A DNA stretch of 64,000 nucleotides, from contig NZ_AUHN01000006.1 of NCBI RefSeq assembly GCF_000423205.1, positions 310,001 through 374,000 of the forward strand. The letters run 5' to 3'. The notes beneath the pieces were generated by a model. It was given only the letters and a program-made list of their open reading frames with translations, did no database searches and was not told where the DNA came from. Position 1 is the stretch's first letter, and the number at the start of each line of letters is the position of its first letter. The stretch comes from Jonesia quinghaiensis DSM 15701 (GTDB lineage Bacteria; Actinomycetota; Actinomycetes; Actinomycetales; Cellulomonadaceae). Positions 4,668 to 16,200 of the stretch are shown here, one piece after another. Position numbers and translations under genes: made by a program.

Positions 4668-7394
4668 TCAGTTGCGCGGAGTGCGAGCTGGGGCTTCGCC
4701 GAGTGTTACTCCGGTTATGCCAATTCCACCTTGTCCAGCTGCCGTTGCGTCTGAGGTGTCGTCGTGGGGTGTCACGGTGACCTTCTCAGCGCGCCCAGCA
4801 GAGCAGATATCTGGTAGTGCTACGCGAACGTACTCTGCCCAGGGGGATGGTACAAGGAGCTCTGCGGTGAGGATTGGGGTTTTCATCGATGCTTTTGCTT
4901 CAGACTTCACCTTGCGCAGTGCGGCAAGGGCCGCTCCTGCAGCAGTGAGGAGCTCAGGGTTAGCGCCCTGTGCGGCGGTGGTGAGCGTAGCAGCAGTTGG
5001 CCATGGTGCGCGGTGAATGGATTCAGTGTGCCACCACGACCACACTTCGTCTGTGGCGAAGGGGAGGACAGGTGCAAACAGTCGCAAGAGGGTGTCCAGC
5101 GCCAAGGCGAGAGCGGTTCTTGCAGACAAAGCTTCTGTTGTCACACTGTCGTGGCCATCAGCGTACGCACGATCTTTCACAAGTTCGAGGTAGTCGTCAC
5201 AGAAGGTCCAGAAGAACGTTTCGGTGAGTTCCAAGGCCCGAGTGTGATCGAAGTCTGTGAGTGCAGCAGTAGAACGCTCAACGACGCTGGCGAGCCCGGC
5301 GAGCATCGCCTTGTCGATGTCTTCGGTGACGAGTGCGGGGTCTAGTGATACTTCACCGTCCGTGGAAAAGGACAGCGCGAACTTTGACGCATTGAGAATT
5401 TTAATGGCTAGGCGGCGTCCGATTTTCATTTGCCCGATCTCGAAGGCGGCGTCTGTTCCCAGCCGTGCTGAGGCAGCCCAGTAACGTACGGCGTCGGAGC
5501 CATGTTCTTCGAGAAGCCCCATGGGGGTGACGACATTGCCCTTGGATTTGGACATTTTCTTGCGGTCAGGGTCAAGAATCCACCCGGAAATTGCCGCGTG
5601 ACGCCATGGCAATTGGTTGTGTTCGAGGTGTGAGCGAACAACAGTGGAGAACAGCCATGTGCGGATGATGTCTTGGCCTTGGGGGCGCAAGTCCATGGGG
5701 AAGACGCGCTCGAATAGTTCTGGGTCGCGAAGCCACCCACCAGCGATTTGGGGGCTCAATGATGAGGTTGCCCAGGTATCCATGATGTCGGGGTCGCCAA
5801 CGAACCCGCCTGCTTGGCCACGCTGTGATTCGGTGTATCCGGTAGGGGCATCACTGGAAGGGTCGATGGGAAGTTGGTCGCCGGTCGGAACGATGGGGGA
5901 GTCCCACTGTGTTTCGCCGTGGGCGTCAACGGGGTACCACACGGGGAAAGGAACACCGAAGAAGCGTTGACGTGAGACCAGCCAGTCACCATTGAGTCCA
6001 CCAACCCAGTTGGCGTAGCGTACCCGCATGAAATCTGGGTGGAATGTCAGTTCATCACCGCGGCTCAGAAGTTCCTCGCGTAGTTCGCGGCCTTCCATGG
6101 GACGGCCGCCGTTGCGGATGTACCACTGGCGTGAGGTCACAATCTCCAAAGGCTTGTCGCCTTTTTCGAAGAAGTTCGTTTTGCGTTGGGTCGCAACAGG
6201 CTCACCGTCTAGGTCTCCTGAGGCACGTAGCGCATCGACAACTTCCTTGCGTGCTGAGAAGGTGGTTTTCCCGGCAATTGCTGCGTAGAGTTCTTGCCCC
6301 GCGGGGGTGGTGATCCACTCGGGGGTTTCTGCGATAACGCGACCATCACGGCGGATGATGGAGCGGGTGGGGAGGTTGAGTTCGCGCCACCATTGGACGT
6401 CGGTCAGGTCGCCGAAGGTGCAGCACATGGCGATTCCGGCGCCTTTGTCAGGCTCGGCAGCAGTGTGCGCAAGCACAGGAACCTCAACACCAAAAAGTGG
6501 GGAGGTAACAGTGGAGCCAAAGAGGTGTTGGTAGCGCTCGTCATCAGGGTGAGCGATTAGCGCAACACACGCGGCCAGAAGCTCAGGGCGCGTCGTTTCG
6601 ATAAAGAGCGGCTCACCGGTTGCTGTGTGGAAAGCAACCTTGTGGTAGTGACCTGGGTAGTCACGTGCTTCAAGTTCAGCTTGAGCGACAGCTGTTTGGA
6701 ACGTGACATCCCACAAACCAGGTGCTTCAGCTTGGTATGCCTCGCCGCGTGACAAGTTGTTGAGGAATGCTTGCTGGGCAACTGCTTGTGCGTCGCGCCC
6801 AATCGTTTGATACGTCCGGGTCCAGTCCACGGAAAGCCCAAGACGGCGCCACAGGGCTTCGAACTGCTTCTCATCTTCAACGGTGAGGCGTTCGCACAGT
6901 TCAACGAAGTTCTTGCGGGAGATGGGTTGCTGGTCTGCTGCTTTCACTGACTTACCTTCGCCGCCCGCGAAAGGAGGCTCGTAATTCTCTACGTAAGGAA
7001 GGGTGGGGTCACAGCGCACCCCATAGTAGTTCTGGACGCGGCGTTCAGTGGGTAAACCGTTGTCGTCCCACCCCATGGGGTAAAACACGTTCTTGCCTGA
7101 CATCCGCTGGAACCGAGCAATGACATCGGTGTGCGTGTAAGAAAAGACGTGCCCGACGTGTAGCGAACCTGACACAGTAGGTGGGGGAGTGTCAATGGAA
7201 AAGACCTGCTCGCGGGTTGTCTCCGGATTGAAGGCGTAGGTGTGGTCGTTCTCCCACGCGGTGTTCCACCGGGACTCTAGACCCTCAACACCAACCCGGT
7301 CCGGGACACCAGAAACGCGCGCGGTTGCCGGTGGTACAGAGTCACGGGTGGTTGCAGATTCATCAAAGGCACTCATGTCCACTAATTCTTCCAT
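4668..7394 (-). CDS. valS: Valyl-tRNA synthetase
   Basis: This class I synthetase charges tRNA-Val. From the start at 7394 the protein is 908 residues. The HIGH signature appears as HVGH in SLHVGHVFSYTHTD and the KMSKS loop as KMSKSKGNVV near residue 613. The editing (CP1) domain lies between them and an anticodon-binding domain follows. The text GIAMCCTFGDLTDVQWW belongs to the ValS subtype found in many Micrococcales rather than the E. coli-like subtype. The ATG at 7394 has GAGGGG 7 nt upstream; a further in-frame ATG at 7376 is possible, and the 69-codon extension beyond 7394 is not supported. Confidence 0.93.
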   Translation of the reverse strand: MEELVDMSAFDESATTRDSVPPATARVSGVPDRVGVEGLESRWNTAWENDHTYAFNPETTREQVFSIDTPPPTVSGSLHVGHVFSYTHTDVIARFQRMSGKNVFYPMGWDDNGLPTERRVQNYYGVRCDPTLPYVENYEPPFAGGEGKSVKAADQQPISRKNFVELCERLTVEDEKQFEALWRRLGLSVDWTRTYQTIGRDAQAVAQQAFLNNLSRGEAYQAEAPGLWDVTFQTAVAQAELEARDYPGHYHKVAFHTATGEPLFIETTRPELLAACVALIAHPDDERYQHLFGSTVTSPLFGVEVPVLAHTAAEPDKGAGIAMCCTFGDLTDVQWWRELNLPTRSIIRRDGRVIAETPEWITTPAGQELYAAIAGKTTFSARKEVVDALRASGDLDGEPVATQRKTNFFEKGDKPLEIVTSRQWYIRNGGRPMEGRELREELLSRGDELTFHPDFMRVRYANWVGGLNGDWLVSRQRFFGVPFPVWYPVDAHGETQWDSPIVPTGDQLPIDPSSDAPTGYTESQRGQAGGFVGDPDIMDTWATSSLSPQIAGGWLRDPELFERVFPMDLRPQGQDIIRTWLFSTVVRSHLEHNQLPWRHAAISGWILDPDRKKMSKSKGNVVTPMGLLEEHGSDAVRYWAASARLGTDAAFEIGQMKIGRRLAIKILNASKFALSFSTDGEVSLDPALVTEDIDKAMLAGLASVVERSTAALTDFDHTRALELTETFFWTFCDDYLELVKDRAYADGHDSVTTEALSARTALALALDTLLRLFAPVLPFATDEVWSWWHTESIHRAPWPTAATLTTAAQGANPELLTAAGAALAALRKVKSEAKASMKTPILTAELLVPSPWAEYVRVALPDICSAGRAEKVTVTPHDDTSDATAAGQGGIGITGVTLGEAPARTPRN

Positions 7395-7510
7395 AGGTTG
7401 ACCCCTCACAGTGCCGTGTCCAGATAGCAGGTCACCGGCACGGTGGCACGTATGCTGAGAGCTGAGTAGGTCAGTATGAGACATACCAACATGCGAGAAA
7501 GGCCGGTTCC

Positions 7511-8305
7511 GTGGAGTTCCATGTATCAGCCCCCGTCGGACTACCTGAGATTGTTCCGGGGGACGACATCGGTGGCCTCGTGTGTCACAGTTCCATGCCA
7601 CTCGCTGACGGAGACATTGTGGCAGTCACCTCAAAGATTGTGTCGAAAGCAGAAGGACGCATCGTTGCAGCTGATGACCGCGAAGCCGCCATCGATTCAC
7701 AAACAGTGCGTATCGTTGCCCAACGGATGCGCCCTGATGGAACCAGTCTGCGTATCGTCGAAAACCCGTTAGGGCTGGTCATGGCAGCAGCTGGGGTCGA
7801 CGCGTCAAACACACCTGCTGGAACAGTATTGTTACTGCCCAGCGACCCTGATGCGAGCGCCCGCACTATCCGGGCCACCATCGCTGCGCTGCGTGGTGTC
7901 AACGTCGCTGTCATTATCACTGACACTGTAGGGCGCCCCTGGCGTGCGGGTCTGACAGATATTGCGATCGGTGCGGCAGGCATTCTCCCAATAGTTGACT
8001 ACCGCGGACACCAAGACACCGCTGGCCGTGAACTGTCAGTTACCCAGACAGCACTCATTGATGAGTTAGCCAGTGCCTCAGAAATCGTGCGCGGTAAAAC
8101 TGACGGTCGTCCGATCGCGGTGATCCGTGGACTGGCCGGGGCAGTCCTGCCAGCAGGCAACGATGGGGAAGGTGCACGCCAACTTGTGCGTCTTGGCCCC
8201 GACGATTTGTTTGCGCAAGGCAGTCAAGAAGCTTTCGATGCGGGGTACGCCGCTGGCCTCGCTGCTGCCCGCCAGGCTCAGCGAGCAGGCACCGACGCGG
8301 AGTGA
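7511..8305 (+). CDS. cofE: Coenzyme F420-0:L-glutamate ligase
   Basis: This 264-residue protein matches CofE/FbiB N-terminal domains, which add glutamate to F420-0 using GTP. Family text includes [18 protein letters not shown] near the N terminus, then TDTVGRPWR and [13 protein letters not shown]. It is the stand-alone ligase without the FMN-binding domain of mycobacterial FbiB. The GTG at 7511 is preceded by GAAAGG at about 8 nt. It is divergent from valS. Its 3' end overlaps the convergent ABC ATPase gene by 28 bp. No other F420 biosynthesis gene is in the window, which fits a salvage role together with the adjacent transporter. Confidence 0.88.
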
Positions 8306-9189
8306 GCCGCCTCAGAACCTCTCGTAGCAGCGCGCTGTTGGGATACCGGATGTGCCTGATCTGTTTGTGCACTGTGCGTCAGCGGAGCCAAAGCAACCAT
8401 GAACTCACCCGTGACCGGGTGTGACATGACCGCTGCATCAACGCCGTACACCTTGCGGATATTCGCCGGAGTGAGGACCTCTTGGACCTTGCCCGCAGCC
8501 ACAACGCGCCCCTCACACAGCAAAATCAGTTGGTCACAGTACCTCGCTGCAAGATTCAAATCATGCAACGCAACGACAACAGTCGGCGCCTCAGTGCCGG
8601 AAAAATTGTCAGACCCAGCTTGGGTAGCAACCTGACGCAATATGGCCAAAATATCGAACTGCGCTTTGATATCAAGGTGGTTTGTTGGTTCATCAACCAG
8701 CAGAACCCGTGGCTGTTGAACAAGTGCACGAGCAATGTGGACACGTTGACGTTCACCACCGGACAACGTGTCCAGGTCACGGTCCGCGAAGTCTGTCAGG
8801 TCCAACGCGCTGAGCACAGAACCAACAATCTGACGGTCCACAACGTGCTCACCACCAAGAAGTGAACGGTGTGGAATCCGCCCCAACGCAACAGCTTGAC
8901 GAACAGACGTCGGCTGAGACGTGCCATGATGTTGATCCATCACAGCCATCGTTCTAGCGCGCTGCCGCGAACCCAACGAGCCAATGCTGCGCCCGTCAAG
9001 TTCAACCAGCCCGGATGCAGGCGAGTTCAGCCCACTCAAGAGACGCACCAACGACGACTTCCCACTGCCATTCGGGCCCAATAAACCCGTCACAGCCCCA
9101 GCGCGGAACGCGTGGGAAATGTTGTCAACGATTCGTGTGTCACCGATACTCCAGGACACTTTTTTCGCTGAGAGTTGCGAGAAAGTCAT
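8278..9189 (-). CDS. ABC transporter ATP-binding protein, proposed F420-0 importer
   Basis: This is a 303-residue FecE/BtuD-type ATPase. Walker A is GPNGSGKSS, the signature is LSGGERQR, and Walker B is [12 protein letters not shown]. The last ~45 residues form a polar tail beyond the usual end of such ATPases. It overlaps the permease gene by 4 bp (9186-9189). By sequence alone it resembles siderophore or cobalamin transporters. The adjacent cofE and the character of the binding protein suggest the proposed actinobacterial F420-0 cassette (as I recall, TIGR03868, TIGR03869 and TIGR03873). That substrate assignment is inference. Confidence 0.8.
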
Positions 9190-10280
9190 GCTTCACCAGC
9201 TTTCGTTCGGTAGAGCACAAACGCGAAAAGAGGTGCCCCAACAGCTGCAGTGATCACCCCAACAGGAATTTCACGAGGGTCAAAAATCGTGCGAGCCAAG
9301 GTATCGCACCACATGAGAAACACCGCACCACATGCAGCACTAAGCGGCAGAAGCAAACGGTGACCCGTGCCAACAAGAAGACGAACCGCGTGCGGAATGA
9401 TGATCCCCACGAAACCAATCGCCCCACTCACCGACACCAAGGAACCGGTCAACACCGCCACAGCAATGAGTAACCCCCACCGCCAAGCCTCAACACGAAT
9501 ACCCAAACTATGTGCCGATGCCTCACCGAACGTAAACGCATCAAGAATATTTCCACTAACCATCAGCGGAACACCAATGACCACCAATGCGCCACCAGCA
9601 ATGGCAACAGTGCTCCACGACGCCCCACCAAGGGACCCCATCAACCACGCCAGCACTTGCCGGTAAGAATCGCCTGAAGCTGACCAAAAAATAATGAACG
9701 ACACCCCCGCCGAACAGACCTGACTAATAGCAAGGCCCGCAAGAATAGTCCGAACCGGGGTGACAGCCCCCATTGAGCGGGCAAGAGTCAAGGACCCAAC
9801 GAGTGCCAACAAGGCACCACTAAACGCGGCAATGGGTAAAGCAACGCCAACAGCAAACAACAACACGATCACTGCGCCAAGAGACGCCCCAGAGGACAAC
9901 CCTAAAAGGTAAGGATCAGCAAGAGGGTTCCGGGTCAGCGACTGCATGATCACTCCACACAACGCCAACCCGGCCCCCACAGCGCCAGCGGTGAGAACCC
10001 GTGGAAGTCGCAACTCCCACACCATCGCGTCGCGCAACGCGGAGATCTCAACACCGCCAGCAAACCCGCCCAAACCTAGGTGATGCAGGATCGAAGCCCA
10101 CACCTCACCAGCAGATAACTGGGCGGGTCCAATCATGACCGTGAACACCACAGTGACAACCAGCGCACACAATACGCCACTGGTGACAAGCACCCTGCGC
10201 CACGCGAACCCACCACGCACTAAATGATCCACGGGGGGAACATAGTGTGCAGAACTGTCAACCTGCTTCACGGCAGTCAT
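9186..10280 (-). CDS. FecCD-family ABC permease, proposed F420-0 importer
   Basis: This 364-residue type II importer permease has about ten predicted membrane segments. FecCD hallmarks are visible: LRLPRVLTA, GVIMQSLTRNPLADP and SGAIGFVGIIIPH. A ~30-residue cytosolic N-terminal tail precedes the first helix. It lies 4 bp downstream of the binding-protein gene and overlaps the ATPase gene, so the cassette is one transcription unit. The fold is clear; the ligand is inferred from the neighbouring cofE. Confidence 0.85.
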   Translation of the reverse strand: MTAVKQVDSSAHYVPPVDHLVRGGFAWRRVLVTSGVLCALVVTVVFTVMIGPAQLSAGEVWASILHHLGLGGFAGGVEISALRDAMVWELRLPRVLTAGAVGAGLALCGVIMQSLTRNPLADPYLLGLSSGASLGAVIVLLFAVGVALPIAAFSGALLALVGSLTLARSMGAVTPVRTILAGLAISQVCSAGVSFIIFWSASGDSYRQVLAWLMGSLGGASWSTVAIAGGALVVIGVPLMVSGNILDAFTFGEASAHSLGIRVEAWRWGLLIAVAVLTGSLVSVSGAIGFVGIIIPHAVRLLVGTGHRLLLPLSAACGAVFLMWCDTLARTIFDPREIPVGVITAAVGAPLFAFVLYRTKAGEA

Positions 10281-10284
10281 GAAA

Positions 10285-11346
10285 CTACGACAACTCGAGT
10301 GAACTCAATTGGCGGGAAAGATCTGCCGCCGCTGACACCGTACGAACCCCGGCTTCCGTTGGTGGAAAGTCGATGACCAAATACTGCTTATTCTTCACAG
10401 CCGGCAACTGTGCAGCAGCCGGCTGTGATTCAAGCATCTCGATCTTGCTGTCAGCAGTTGACCAACTCGCATCAACAAGAATGATGACATCAGGGTTCGA
10501 CTCAACAATGGCTTCCCATGACATCGAACCCCACGTGTCATCAATATCTTGCCCTACGTTACTCACTCCCACGGTGTCCATGATGAGCTGGGCCGAGCCA
10601 ATACCCCCACCAACAAACGGAACATCAGACCCCGAAGAAAACCACAACGCCTCAAGACCGCGATCGTCAGCAGTCACCGCTTCCAACTGCGCCCGCTGAT
10701 CCGCAACAACCTGCGCCGCCTGCTCAGAAGCATCGAAAATCTCACCAACAGTGGTGATCTCATCAAACAACGCCTCCCACGTCAGCGGGTCAGGCTGATA
10801 CCCCGGTGCTTTACACGCAGAGGGGGCAACGATCGTGTGCACCCCAAGATCCTCAAAGAAATCCCGGTCAGCGATCCCCTCAGCAGTCAACATAGATTCC
10901 CACCCGACATAAACAACCTCAGGCTCCACCTCGAGCACAGCCTCAGCGGACGGTAACTGCTCTGCCAACGGTGACGCAATCGCCTCATTACCCTGCGCCT
11001 GCTCCTGCAACCAATCAGGAATCGGACCATCGAGGTACGTCGTCGCCACAATGGAGTCACCTAACCCCAACGCAAGAAGAAGTTCCGTGGTTGACGACTT
11101 CGCGGTCATAACCCGGCGCGGAGCCTGCTCAAACGTCACCTCATACCCACAGTTATCGATCGTCAGCGGGTAGGCAGTTCCAGTGGACGTAGTCGACGGC
11201 GACGATTGGGCGGCAGGAGAAGATGTTGACTCAGCGCTGCAAGCACTAAGGAAAACGACAGTAGACAAGGTGACAACAACGGGAATAGCCACGCGGCGCA
11301 GACCCATAGAAGGGGCTGTGCGCTCGCGGAAAAGTGAAGGCATCAT
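10285..11346 (-). CDS. ABC substrate-binding lipoprotein, proposed F420-0 binding protein
   Basis: This is a 353-residue class III (BtuF/FepB-like) binding protein. An N-terminal hydrophobic helix ends in lipobox LSAC. The mature protein opens YPLTIDNCGYEVTF and includes KSSTTELLLALGLGDSIV, APSACKAPGY and SSGSDVPFVGGGIGSAQ. These segments resemble the actinobacterial proteins annotated as putative F420-0 binding proteins more than siderophore binders. The start may be the first or second of two adjacent ATGs. It heads the operon, and a structured stretch at 11377-11436 lies in its likely 5' leader. Confidence 0.8.
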   Translation of the reverse strand: MMPSLFRERTAPSMGLRRVAIPVVVTLSTVVFLSACSAESTSSPAAQSSPSTTSTGTAYPLTIDNCGYEVTFEQAPRRVMTAKSSTTELLLALGLGDSIVATTYLDGPIPDWLQEQAQGNEAIASPLAEQLPSAEAVLEVEPEVVYVGWESMLTAEGIADRDFFEDLGVHTIVAPSACKAPGYQPDPLTWEALFDEITTVGEIFDASEQAAQVVADQRAQLEAVTADDRGLEALWFSSGSDVPFVGGGIGSAQLIMDTVGVSNVGQDIDDTWGSMSWEAIVESNPDVIILVDASWSTADSKIEMLESQPAAAQLPAVKNKQYLVIDFPPTEAGVRTVSAAADLSRQLSSLELS

Positions 11347-11376
11347 CAGAGGTGATTCTTTCAGCCAAGAGTGGGC

Positions 11377-11436
11377 GGGAGGATGTGCTGCGAATGCCGG
11401 AGCAGATCAGCAGCGCAAATCGGCGCTGCACCTCCC
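11377..11436 (-). other. Structured leader element upstream of the F420-0 transporter genes
   Basis: On the transcript (minus strand) GGGAGG (11436-11431) can pair with CCTCCC (11382-11377), closing a ~60-nt element. Inside it is a perfect 7-bp hairpin (arms 11423-11429 and 11410-11416, 6-nt loop) and a weaker 4-bp stem (11401-11404 with 11386-11389), giving a three-way-junction layout. No U-tract follows. It may be a proC terminator, an mRNA leader structure or a regulatory RNA. I do not recognise a known riboswitch class. Confidence 0.4.
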
Positions 11437-11483
11437 AACCAATCGAGGCTGAGGGACCTTGTCGTTCTATGATGCCAGATGCA

Positions 11484-12296
11484 TCAGCCCTGTTGGTTGA
11501 GGTTTTTATCACGTGAGACGGTGGCAGCAACCGCGTCGGTAACTGTTGAAAGAAAACCGTGGCGTTCAAGTTCCAGCAAACCTGCAACAGTGGTGCCGCC
11601 AGGGGAGCAGACCGCGTCGATGAGCGCCCAAGGGTGTTCTTGTGTTTCTTGGAGGAGCGTTGCTGAACCAAGCACTGCCTGGGTGGCAACTTTGGTGGCG
11701 ACTGCTTTGGGCATTCCCGCAGCAACTGCGCCGCGCGACAGGGCATCAATGTAGAGGAACGTGAATGCCGGGGAACTCCCTGCTATGGCGGTGAATGCCG
11801 GGAATTGCGCTTCCTCAAGGACAACAACGTCGCCTACTGCTTCGAATGCGGCAACGACGCTTGATTCGTCACTGTCCGTGGCATTCTCGTTGAGACAGAT
11901 GGCGGTCATTCCAGCGCGCACCGTGGAGTTGACGTTGGGCATTGCCCGGGCAATGCGGGTGTTTTGCCCCAACATTGCGCCTAGGTCATTTAAGGTCAAG
12001 CCAGCGGCAACTGAGACCACAAGGGGTGTGCTTTCTTGGAGTTCTTCGCTGATCTCAGCGGCAACTTCAGCAAATTGGTGTGGTTTAACGGCCAAAATGA
12101 GGATGTCTGATTCCAGTGCGACAAGCGCGTTGGAATCAAGAGCTCGAAGGGAGAGCTCAGCCGCGAACTCGTCACGCTTCGTCTTGTTTCTCGAGGACAC
12201 CACAATGTCCTGTGACTGAACCAGTCCACTGGCGATAAGCCCGCGGATAATGGCACCTGCCATGTTTCCGATGCCGATGAAACCAACTGTGCTCAT
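11484..12296 (-). CDS. proC: Pyrroline-5-carboxylate reductase
   Basis: This 270-residue enzyme carries out the last step of proline synthesis, NAD(P)H-dependent reduction of 1-pyrroline-5-carboxylate. The Rossmann motif GFIGIGNMAGAI is at the very N terminus. The family C-terminal region has the equivalent of the DxVxSPGGTT signature, here DAVCSPGGTTVAGL. The ATG at 12296 has AAGGGG 8 nt upstream; the 40-codon extension to 12416 is not protein-like. A small hairpin (11470-11486) covers its stop codon. It is probably monocistronic, with the F420-0 transporter genes 137 bp downstream on the same strand. Confidence 0.92.
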   Translation of the reverse strand: MSTVGFIGIGNMAGAIIRGLIASGLVQSQDIVVSSRNKTKRDEFAAELSLRALDSNALVALESDILILAVKPHQFAEVAAEISEELQESTPLVVSVAAGLTLNDLGAMLGQNTRIARAMPNVNSTVRAGMTAICLNENATDSDESSVVAAFEAVGDVVVLEEAQFPAFTAIAGSSPAFTFLYIDALSRGAVAAGMPKAVATKVATQAVLGSATLLQETQEHPWALIDAVCSPGGTTVAGLLELERHGFLSTVTDAVAATVSRDKNLNQQG

Positions 12297-12465
12297 AATG
12301 CTTGCCCCTTTTGGTATTGACGTATTTTCTCTACCGTACCGCCGATCAACAGGGCTTTCGACGCGAGGTGGCGCTCTTGCTTCACGATGCGCAACACACG
12401 TCCACCAGTTGGGCACGAGATGTTTGCACTAGACGCAGTCTGGGTTTCTCGGTCATCATAGGGGC

Positions 12466-12567
12466 ATGACATTGAGCACCGTGAGTAACCATGACCAGCG
12501 TTCCACGCTGTCTGTCATGGGCCGTGTGTGCCTTTCCTGTTGTTGTCAGCCCGTAACTTTCCGCTGA
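12466..12567 (+). CDS. Putative Cys-rich leader peptide
   Basis: This is a 33-codon ORF whose C-terminal part reads MGRVCLSCCCQPVTFR. AGGGG stands one base before the ATG, and internal GTG/ATG starts are possible. Three consecutive TGT Cys codons (12538-12546) lie exactly in the left arm of a hairpin (12537-12550 with 12563-12578) whose right arm contains the stop codon. A terminator-like hairpin starts 13 nt after the stop. This arrangement is typical of amino-acid attenuation leaders, here for cysteine. The regulated gene is unclear. I cannot exclude a chance ORF. Confidence 0.45.
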   Translation: MTLSTVSNHDQRSTLSVMGRVCLSCCCQPVTFR

Positions 12568-12580
12568 CCACACAACAGAT

Positions 12581-12608
12581 GACGCCCCACAGGGGGCGTC
12601 TAGATTTT
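12581..12608 (+). terminator. Terminator-like hairpin after the Cys-rich ORF
   Basis: GACGCCCC (12581-12588) and GGGGCGTC (12593-12600) pair around ACAG, followed by TAGATTTT. This has the form of an intrinsic terminator on the plus strand. No other plus-strand gene precedes it, which supports a short transcript carrying the 33-codon ORF. Confidence 0.6.
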
Positions 12609-12619
12609 CCAGGATAAAA

Positions 12620-12892
12620 ATGTCATCTCTCGCCGTGGCACTTGCCACCCCTGTGCGCAGTGCTGTGCTCCCTTCCTCCTTGAACCTTGATGCTCCTCGC
12701 GTGATGCAACCGACTCCGGTTGCGCAGGAGCGAGTTGTTGACGTGGTGAAACCAGGACGTGCTGGTGCAGTCACCGTGGAGTACCTCGTGTTGCACGACA
12801 TCGAGCGCTTCAGCATGAGACGCGCCACAAGAACAGAAACACGCCAGACTGCCTCCCTGCGAGACGTGACGAATGGGGGCGTTGCAGTCTAG
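12620..12892 (+). CDS. Hypothetical 90-residue ORF between proC and ileS
   Basis: I do not recognise this ORF. AGGA stands 5 nt before the ATG, and it begins 20 nt after the terminator-like hairpin. The first ~65 codons use the G/C-ending codons usual in this genome; the last ~25 are Arg/Thr-rich and less convincing. No signal peptide, membrane helix or known motif is visible. It may be the gene controlled by the Cys leader, a decayed remnant, or not coding. It ends 12 nt before the ileS T-box leader begins. Confidence 0.3.
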   Translation: MSSLAVALATPVRSAVLPSSLNLDAPRVMQPTPVAQERVVDVVKPGRAGAVTVEYLVLHDIERFSMRRATRTETRQTASLRDVTNGGVAV

Positions 12893-12904
12893 GATGAAAC
12901 AGAT

Positions 12905-13201
12905 CGGCGTCGACCCGGCTATCACCGGCGAGCCTCCGGAAGAACAGGCCATGTCACGCGCAGTGATGAACCGTAAGGACTCACTCCCACCGGGACCCAC
13001 GCGCGAAGCACAGCCCTAGTAGACCCGGACGGGGAAGGCCCGTTACAGCTGAGAACGAGAGGTTGGTAGCTAGTGAACTCCCGCAACACGCGGAGCTCCT
13101 AATGCCAGCAAGCGGGGTGGTACCGCGGCCCCATGCCCCTGCGCATGGTGTTCGTCCTCGCAGTCACAGGTTTTATTGGTCCACCCTGGAGTGCTCACGC
13201 C
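12905..13201 (+). promoter_or_regulatory. Isoleucine T-box leader of ileS, translational type
   Basis: Conserved T-box parts are visible in order. A very short stem I carries an ATC (Ile) specifier at 12921-12923. A stem II block has AGTAGACCCGGACGGG and CCCGTTACAGC near 13018-13051. The T-box core GGGGTGGTACCGCGG is at 13114-13128. Its TGGT (13118-13121) can pair with the acceptor end ACCA of uncharged tRNA-Ile. GGGTGG(T)ACC (13115-13124) can alternatively pair with GGTCCACCC (13178-13186), directly before the GGAG (13188-13191) that serves the ATG at 13202. No terminator follows, so control of translation is likely, as described for actinobacterial ileS leaders. Confidence 0.88.
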
Positions 13202-16200
13202 ATGAGTAACAGCTCACGCTATCCGCTGCACCGCGACGCAGACTCTGTTGTCGCATCTCCTCATCTCCCAACAGTTGAAGAGGAGGTGCTGGCGTATTGG
13301 GAGTCCGACAACACTTTCGCGGCGTCCATTGCGCAACGTGACGCAGGGGACAAGGGTTCCAATGAGTTCGTTTTCTACGATGGCCCCCCGTTTGCCAATG
13401 GCTTGCCACACTATGGCCACCTCCTGACTGGGTACGCCAAAGACGTTGTACCCCGGTATCAAACGATGCGTGGCCGCCGCGTTGAACGTCGGTTCGGCTG
13501 GGACACTCATGGGTTACCAGCTGAACTCGAAGCCGAACGCGTTCTTGGCATCACGGATAAATCCCAAATTGATGAGATGGGTATCGCTGCATTTAACGAT
13601 GCCTGCCGCACCTCGGTGTTGAAGTACACCAAAGAATGGGAAGAGTACGTCACTCGGCAAGCACGTTGGGTGGACTTCGAAAACGACTACAAAACCCTCG
13701 ACAGCACCTTTATGGAATCTGTCATCTGGGCATTCAAACAACTTTATGACAAAGGCCTTGCCTACGAGGGGCACCGGGTCCTGCCATACTGCTGGCGTGA
13801 TGAAACACCGTTGTCCAACCACGAACTGCGCATGGACGACGATGTCTACCAGTCCCGTCAAGATCCAGCACTCACTGTCTTGCTGCCACTGCGTGACGCC
13901 CCCCAGGCGCTGCGTGACGCATCGTTGGTGATCTGGACAACCACCCCATGGACCTTGCCTTCGAACCTTGCCGTTGCTGTTGGCCCTGACATTCCTTATG
14001 TTGCTGTGCGCCCGACACAGGGTGACATGGCAGGTCGCACGCTGATTCTGGCAGCCTCCCGGGTGAGTTCCTATTCTCGTGAACTTGGTGAAGAGCCTGA
14101 AGTTGTTGCCCAGCTCACCGGAGCAGACCTCGTTGGACTGTTCTATCAACCACCGTTTGCATACTTCGCAGATCGGGACAACGCCCACCAGGTACTAGCC
14201 GCTGACTTTGTCACCACGGATGACGGAACAGGGTTAGTCCACCTTGCCCCAGCATTCGGTGAAGACGACGCCGCAGTCTGCGCGGAAGCGGGCATCGACA
14301 CGATCGTCCCAGTGGACTCTAAAGGACGTTTCACCCATGATGTTCCCGACTATGTTGGGCAACAGGTTTTTGATGCCAACCCGGTCATCATCAAAGACCT
14401 CAAAGAGCGTGGCATCGTTGTGCGCCACGAAACCTACCAACACTCCTATCCACACTGCTGGCGTTGCCGGAACCCTTTGATCTACAAGGCTGTGTCTTCG
14501 TGGTTTGTGCGGGTCACGCAATTCCGTGACCGCATGGTCGAACTCAACGACGACGTCACCTGGGTCCCTGACCACATCAAGCATGGTCAGTTTGGAAAGT
14601 GGCTCTCCAACGCTCGTGACTGGTCCATCTCACGTAACCGCTACTGGGGCACCCCCATTCCTGTATGGGTGTCAGACAGTGCAGAATACCCGCGCATGGA
14701 CGTTTATGGTTCACTAGCTGATCTTGAGCGTGACTTTGGGCGGTTGCCGCTCAACGAGCAGGGAGAGCCGGACCTGCACCGCCCATACATTGATGACCTC
14801 ACGCGGCCAAACCCCGATGACCCAACTGGGCAATCGACGATGCGCCGTATTCCTGATGTCCTTGACGTGTGGTTTGACTCCGGGTCCATGCCATTCGCGC
14901 AAGTGCACTATCCCTTTGAGAATGCCGAGTGGTTCGACAACCACTACCCAGGTGATTTCATCGTGGAGTACATCGGGCAAACTCGTGGTTGGTTCTACAC
15001 CCTCCATGTCCTTGCCACCGCACTGTTTGACCGCCCCGCTTTCAGAACTGCTGTATCCCACGGGATCGTGCTGGGCTCTGACGGGCGCAAAATGAGCAAG
15101 TCGTTGCGCAACTACCCTGACGTGTCAGAAGTCCTCGGTCGAGATGGCGCAGACGCTATGCGCTGGTTCCTCATGTCGAGCCCCATTTTGCGTGGCGGAA
15201 ACCTCGTGGTGACAGAAGAGGGAATTCGAGATTCTGTCCGTCAGGTACTGCTCCCTGTGTGGTCCACGTACTACTTCTTTACGATGTACGTCTCAGCGGT
15301 GGGGAAGGGCCAGGGATACCTTGCCCGCATGATTACCCCCGACGACTACGCAGATCTCCCGGACATGGACCGGTACATCTTGGCTCGGACGCGAACTCTT
15401 GTCGCTGACCTCACCGGGCAGATGGATGGATTTGACATTGCCGGTGCGTGTGAATCAGTGCGTGATTACCTCGATGAACTCACTAACTGGTATGTGCGCA
15501 CCCAGCGTGACCGCTTCTGGGGCGAAGACCACAACGCATTCAACACTCTCTACACCGTGTTGGAAACTCTGACGCGCCTCATCGCGCCACTAGCACCGCT
15601 AGTCTCCGAGGAAATTTGGCGTGGACTTACTGGTGGACGGTCCGTGCACCTAGAAGACTGGCCAACCCTGGCTGGAGCGTACGGTGAGATTCTCGTTGCC
15701 GATGACACTCTCGTGGGTGCCATGGACGAGATCCGTGAAACAGTGTCCCTGGCGTTGTCCTTGCGTAAAGCACACCGCCTCCGGGTGCGCCAACCACTGT
15801 CATCACTAACTATCGTCACTGACAACCCTGCCGCGATTTCGCCATACAGCACTGTGCTTGCTGGGGAACTCAACGTCCGTAATGTCAACATTGAACTTCT
15901 CGACGACTCTGCAGCGACCACCTATGGGATCTCAGAGAACCTTGCGGTCAATGCTCGTGCTGCAGGCCCGCGCCTCGGACGTGGTGTTCAAGCTGTCATC
16001 AAGGGCGCCAAAACTGGAGCATGGTCGAAAACAGCGGCCGGGGCAGTTGTGGTCACCACCGATGGCGGCGACGTGGAGCTCTTACCTGCTGAATACGAAC
16101 TCACGACAGTCGTCGATAACACCTCGGGTCAGCACACTGCAGCAGCCGTTTTGAGTGGCGGAGGGTTTGTTGTTCTCGACATCGAACTCACCGAAGAACT

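Follow-up and report, generated by a model that had tools for sequence, protein, structure and literature searches.

What does a three-gene ATP-binding cassette (ABC) importer carry when it lies beside cofE, a gene of coenzyme F420 synthesis? The question is raised by a locus of Jonesia quinghaiensis DSM 15701, contained in a window of 64,000 nucleotides (contig NZ_AUHN01000006.1, positions 310,001 to 374,000), in which a stand-alone cofE gene converges with genes for an ATPase, a permease and a substrate-binding lipoprotein of the BtuCDF type. This arrangement had been noted in a preliminary description of the window and is confirmed by open reading frames, motifs and family scores. The description went on to propose that tail-less F420-0 is imported and trapped by glutamylation. 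Its more general part, the salvage of an F420 precursor, is well supported by the gene content; F420-0 as the cargo does not fit, CofC and CofD being retained and only FO synthase missing. We consider that the locus is probably the uptake end of a salvage route to F420 which starts from FO (7,8-didemethyl-8-hydroxy-5-deazariboflavin).

F420 pathway genes of the genome

In the synthesis of F420, CofC and CofD convert FO to F420-0, and CofE converts F420-0 to F420-n. The genome that contains the window (3.04 Mb, 12 contigs, 99.99% complete) was searched with family profiles for these genes. An intact cofD is present on another contig (C1:186945-187892; 274.4 bits, above the cut-off of 257.45), and a divergently oriented cofC-like gene adjoins it (C1:186144-186740). 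The CofD protein can be aligned along its length to FbiA of M. smegmatis with 258 bits, compared with 138 bits for a methanogen CofD, and this alignment shows that the catalytic metal ligands Asp45 and Asp57 are conserved; the metal-binding catalytic residues of FbiA/CofD are named in PMC8498797. No cofG was found in the genome by family search, and the only cofH signal, at 19.9 bits, belongs to MoaA, so that there is no cofH and a hidden FO synthase was rejected. The genome has CofD and CofE but no FO synthase, the gene content expected beside an FO importer. It does not show the content expected beside an F420-0 importer, cofE without cofC and cofD. The F420 pathway is incomplete, but more of it than cofE is left.

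Nine luciferase-like proteins are encoded in the same genome. Four of the five that were scanned score above F420-dependent cut-offs (TIGR03559, TIGR03842 and, twice, TIGR03560), and the fifth exceeds the TIGR03557 cut-off but has a higher score with an FMN model. F420 is therefore probably required by the cell, in which a single stage of the pathway, the synthesis of FO, is missing.

With import of F420-0 there would be no task for CofC and CofD, whereas import of FO would use all enzymes present, and FO is therefore the predicted cargo. The sequences show which genes are present or absent; that FO is carried, that it moves inward and that glutamylation traps it is our inference. In detail, the lipoprotein would capture FO released by F420-making neighbours, and the permease and ATPase of the BtuC/BtuD type would import it. 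CofC would make an activated phospho-acid in the cytoplasm, which CofD would join to FO, yielding F420-0 or dehydro-F420-0. The addition of glutamates by CofE would finally produce a strongly anionic molecule that is held inside the cell for F420-dependent oxidoreductases.

Compared with the canonical synthesis by FbiC, FbiD, FbiA and FbiB, the genome has an FbiA-like CofD, lacks FbiC, and encodes a CofE without the nitroreductase domain of FbiB. In mycobacteria, this domain reduces dehydro-F420-0. The CofE of the window comprises 264 amino acids, and its match to model PRK13294 (449 positions) covers residues 14-265 only, the C-terminal nitroreductase domain of the FbiB type not being found in this model match; no reductase for dehydro-F420-0 was seen beside cofE or beside the cofC/cofD pair either. 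With a stand-alone CofE of this kind there would have to be a separate reductase, unless the acid used by CofC is a different one.

The cofC/cofD pair (G000:C1:186144-187892; L006:9444-11447) is located between genes for an MFS transporter and an ABC exporter. In the tree, this CofD sits on a long branch close to the base of the clade of operonic CofD proteins, a position that points to a possible relocation or regain.

Distribution of the transporter in the family and order

In a sample of 200 genomes from the GTDB family of the window genome, the transporter was found above cut-off in 175, cofD in 144, cofE in 190 and FO synthase (a TIGR03551 match at E < 1e-60) in 25. Transporter and cofD without FO synthase, the combination discussed above, occur in 110 genomes; FO synthase without cofD occurs in none. 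In 47 genomes, 44 of which have no FO synthase, cofD and the binding-protein gene are no more than 5 kb apart, a linkage that is expected of an FO importer. The usual operonic layout in these relatives is SBP-permease-ATPase-cofD> <cofC <cofE (SBP, substrate-binding protein). As cofD and cofC occupy the junction between cofE and the ATPase gene in many relatives, the convergent cofE of the window looks like this common layout minus the cofD/cofC pair. In genome G184, which has no cofD, a cofC-like match (L156:9917-10498) directly follows the transporter ATPase gene and is possibly a remnant of cofD loss.

Outside the family, 273 genomes of the order were sampled. The transporter was found above cut-off in 50 of them and FO synthase in 52, but both together in none (Fisher p 1e-5, uncorrected for relatedness). 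Of 40 transporter loci outside the family, 13 contain cofD (in the families f7, f9, f13, f19 and f20), none of them in a genome with FO synthase.

Several observations weigh against FO as the cargo. The cofC-like gene of the window genome scores 99.8 bits, slightly below the NCBIfam cut-off of 105, and 18 of the 200 family genomes have the transporter together with the full pathway including FO synthase. Outside the family, genomes were scored as lacking cofD on the basis of some 15 kb around the locus. At least six genomes of genus g10, as well as G106, have cofD without transporter or FO synthase, and any FO-dependent F420 synthesis in them must use another route. In addition, a passage of PMC11917521 that cites Kern 1983 reports FO as membrane permeable, which explains its release yet weakens the need for an importer. 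The residue association described below was selected from about 250 columns and has exceptions in both directions, genus g23 and G271 having Ser293 in spite of cofD, and some cofD-less genomes having Ala293.

Culture supernatants of F420 producers typically contain FO, at up to micromolar concentrations (PMC11917521), and FO from a bacterial symbiont has been proposed as a 'vitamin' or signal for its fungal host (PMC11104420). Our literature searches turned up no FO importer, nor did the phrase 'putative F420-0 ABC transporter' occur in the papers searched.

Binding proteins of two types and the probable cargo

A comparison of 144 binding proteins revealed residues that vary with the cofD status of the genome. 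Among the family genomes, 66 of 70 that have cofD show Ala at position 293, and 27 of 34 that lack it show Ser, G132 being counted among the latter at this split and later placed in the cofD group because of cofD fragments at contig ends. Outside the family, 12 of 13 proteins whose locus contains cofD have Ala there, and 22 of the 27 whose locus does not have Ser; the five of these 27 with Ala293 are those of G379, G250, G290, G308 and G323. Positions 297, 300 and 304 are similar, the strongest columns thus falling within one 12-residue stretch, and two segment types can be distinguished: Ala293, Thr297 and an uncharged residue 300 with cofD, and Ser, Ser and Lys or His without. The window protein (Q130, A293, T297, S300, M304) is of the first type, the protein from J. 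denitrificans (R130, S293, S297, K300, I304) of the second.

Phylogenetically independent pairs were scored on a tree built without these columns. For positions 293, 297, 300 and 304, about 7 of 11 pairs agree with cofD status and essentially none disagree; the best permease column in the same scan reached 4.5 of 8 pairs and the best ATPase column 4.3 of 9. When the trait was simulated on the tree, an equally strong best column arose in 2 of 71 simulations. The support for the association is therefore real but moderate. In the family, the mean net charge at positions 130 and 300 together is +0.11 for genomes with cofD and +1.61 for those lacking it; outside the family, the two values are -0.15 and +1.48. 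The extra positive charge of the cofD-less proteins may reflect the need to bind F420-0, which bears phosphate and carboxylate, FO being neutral. A predicted structure from a two-sequence alignment (mean pLDDT 33) has a strand at 289-292 and a helix at 298-307; this low-quality model, which would put 293 at the strand end and 297, 300 and 304 on the helix, was not used as evidence.

The first alternative to a specific FO importer is a broad deazaflavin importer that would accept FO, F420-0 and perhaps F420 through their shared ring and ribityl part. Indeed, orthologous transporters occur in genomes with and without cofD, with some 14-15 changes of status across the tree of binding proteins, and most conserved residues, e.g. 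W149, E150, S151, W235, W272 and W295, are identical in both types of binding protein. Full promiscuity would however not require four linked residues to shift with cofD status, and we regard such a broad specificity as rather unlikely.

The second alternative is the import of F420-0 followed by trapping through CofE, as first proposed for the window. It agrees with the NCBIfam names of all three subunits, with the position of cofE next to the transporter, and with the 47 of 175 transporter-bearing family genomes, including J. denitrificans, that lack cofD, nearly all of which keep cofE. For the window it is nevertheless improbable: the genome has kept cofC and cofD and misses only FO synthase, cofD is part of the transporter operon in many relatives, and the binding protein carries the Ala/Thr/uncharged segment, unlike that of J. 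denitrificans. In the latter, with no cofD, import of F420-0 would fit.

The name of the family deserves a closer look in this respect. TIGR03868, TIGR03869 and TIGR03873, 'putative F420-0 ABC transporter', are hypothetical equivalogs in NCBIfam and describe the same cassette, beside cofE in an actinobacterium without FO synthase. The name reportedly rested on a handful of cofD-less actinobacteria, J. denitrificans among them. Such genomes are a minority in the family sample; the window genome and most of the surveyed relatives have cofD, so that FO would be expected in place of the named cargo. The binding protein scores 442.0 bits with TIGR03868 (cut-off 392.4) and the permease 508.1 bits with TIGR03869 (cut-off 437.35). 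The ATPase finds its best model in TIGR03873, 100 bits ahead of the next one (heme), but with 346.3 bits it remains below the cut-off of 372.4, so that two of the three subunits exceed their cut-offs. The cassette belongs to this family by its binding protein and its permease; judged by the gene content of this genome, the functional label F420-0 does not suit it.

A siderophore, heme or corrinoid as cargo is very improbable and was rejected on model scores: the binding protein belongs to a BtuF/FecB-like superfamily and has the siderophore protein EitA as second-best model, but with only 142 bits against a cut-off of 640, and for each of the three subunits the F420-linked model leads by 100 to 300 bits, cofE, cofD or cofC are neighbours in several families, and transporter and FO synthase exclude each other outside the family. 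The binding protein thus resembles the family of proposed F420-0 binders, as the preliminary description had it, and does not score best with heme, siderophore or cobalamin families. The architecture is that of the vitamin B12 importer BtuCDF, a Type II ABC importer with BtuC-, BtuD- and BtuF-like parts; however, the likeness of the binding protein to BtuF is weak (29 bits, cut-off 234), and the context is F420 and not corrinoids.

Beyond FO import by the window transporter, we tentatively suggest, as an idea that has somewhat less than even standing, that the transporter family comprises two putative cargo classes, FO with cofD and F420-0 without, which would have been interchanged repeatedly through one helix-sized segment of the binding protein. 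In much of this actinobacterial order, the use of F420 would then depend on precursors obtained by cross-feeding, FO being the chief vitamin shared. FO import would change the cargo predicted for an annotated transporter family, and the two orthologous binding proteins of Jonesia should prefer different F420 precursors. For one of them a structure is available: PDB 4mlz, deposited as 'Periplasmic binding protein' without function, is closely homologous to the window protein (E 5e-127) and 100% identical to the protein of J. denitrificans (G017), which is of the cofD-less Ser293/Ser297/Lys300 type. The window genome represents a second Jonesia species, G017 being the only other member of the genus in the sample. 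If FO import is true, FO would serve soil actinobacteria as a vitamin exchanged outside the cell, and many genomes counted as F420-negative for want of FO synthase would be those of F420 users.

Features of the locus and observations in related genomes

The four-gene locus (Table 1) is real and chance is excluded. CofE scores 225.6 bits with TIGR01916 (cut-off 180.65) and has an E value of 7e-53 with PF01996, and its PDB matches 2g9i, 2phn and 7uld are CofE structures. The Pfam results agree with the NCBIfam assignments. The binding-protein motifs quoted in the preliminary description (YPLTIDNCGYEVTF, APSACKAPGY and SSGSDVPFVGGG) were all found. The locus is flanked by valS on one side and by proC and then ileS on the other. 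An Rfam scan of positions 6500-13500 gave no RNA element, and promoter and terminator scans gave nothing informative.

Table 1. Features of the cofE-transporter locus (window positions)
Feature	Position	Strand	Basis or remark
cofE, stand-alone F420-0:gamma-glutamyl ligase	7511-8305	+	TIGR01916, PF01996
ABC transporter ATPase, BtuD type	8278-9189	-	best model TIGR03873; ABC_tran PF00005
ABC transporter permease, BtuC type	9186-10280	-	TIGR03869; FecCD PF01032
Substrate-binding lipoprotein, BtuF type	10285-11346	-	TIGR03868; homologue PDB 4mlz
Binding-protein codons 293-304, segment tracking cofD status	10435-10470	-	column comparison; A293 T297 S300 M304
Convergent 3'-end overlap of cofE and ATPase gene, 28 bp	8278-8305	not assigned	open reading frame list

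A contig scan with the binding protein as single query gave one relative only. In the g10 loci examined, no obvious replacement importer was found near cofE, only a cystine-like amino-acid ABC system, the genes of which directly precede cofE (L240:2988-7852, L238:7314-11399 and L239:3703-7977). This conserved cluster also has a gene for a luciferase-like oxidoreductase of the F420/FMN type before cofE, and a gene for a class I tRNA synthetase adjoins it in L240. About 18 family genomes (genera g7, g19 and g20), most of which also carry the transporter, encode FbiC-like proteins of about 220-313 bits, below the TIGR03551 cut-off, which may represent a divergent type of FO synthase. In the binding lipoprotein, which has a lipobox-like LSAC with Cys36, two further cysteines, Cys66 and Cys178, are invariant along with it in the 144 proteins, and a disulfide or a ligand contact is possible for them.

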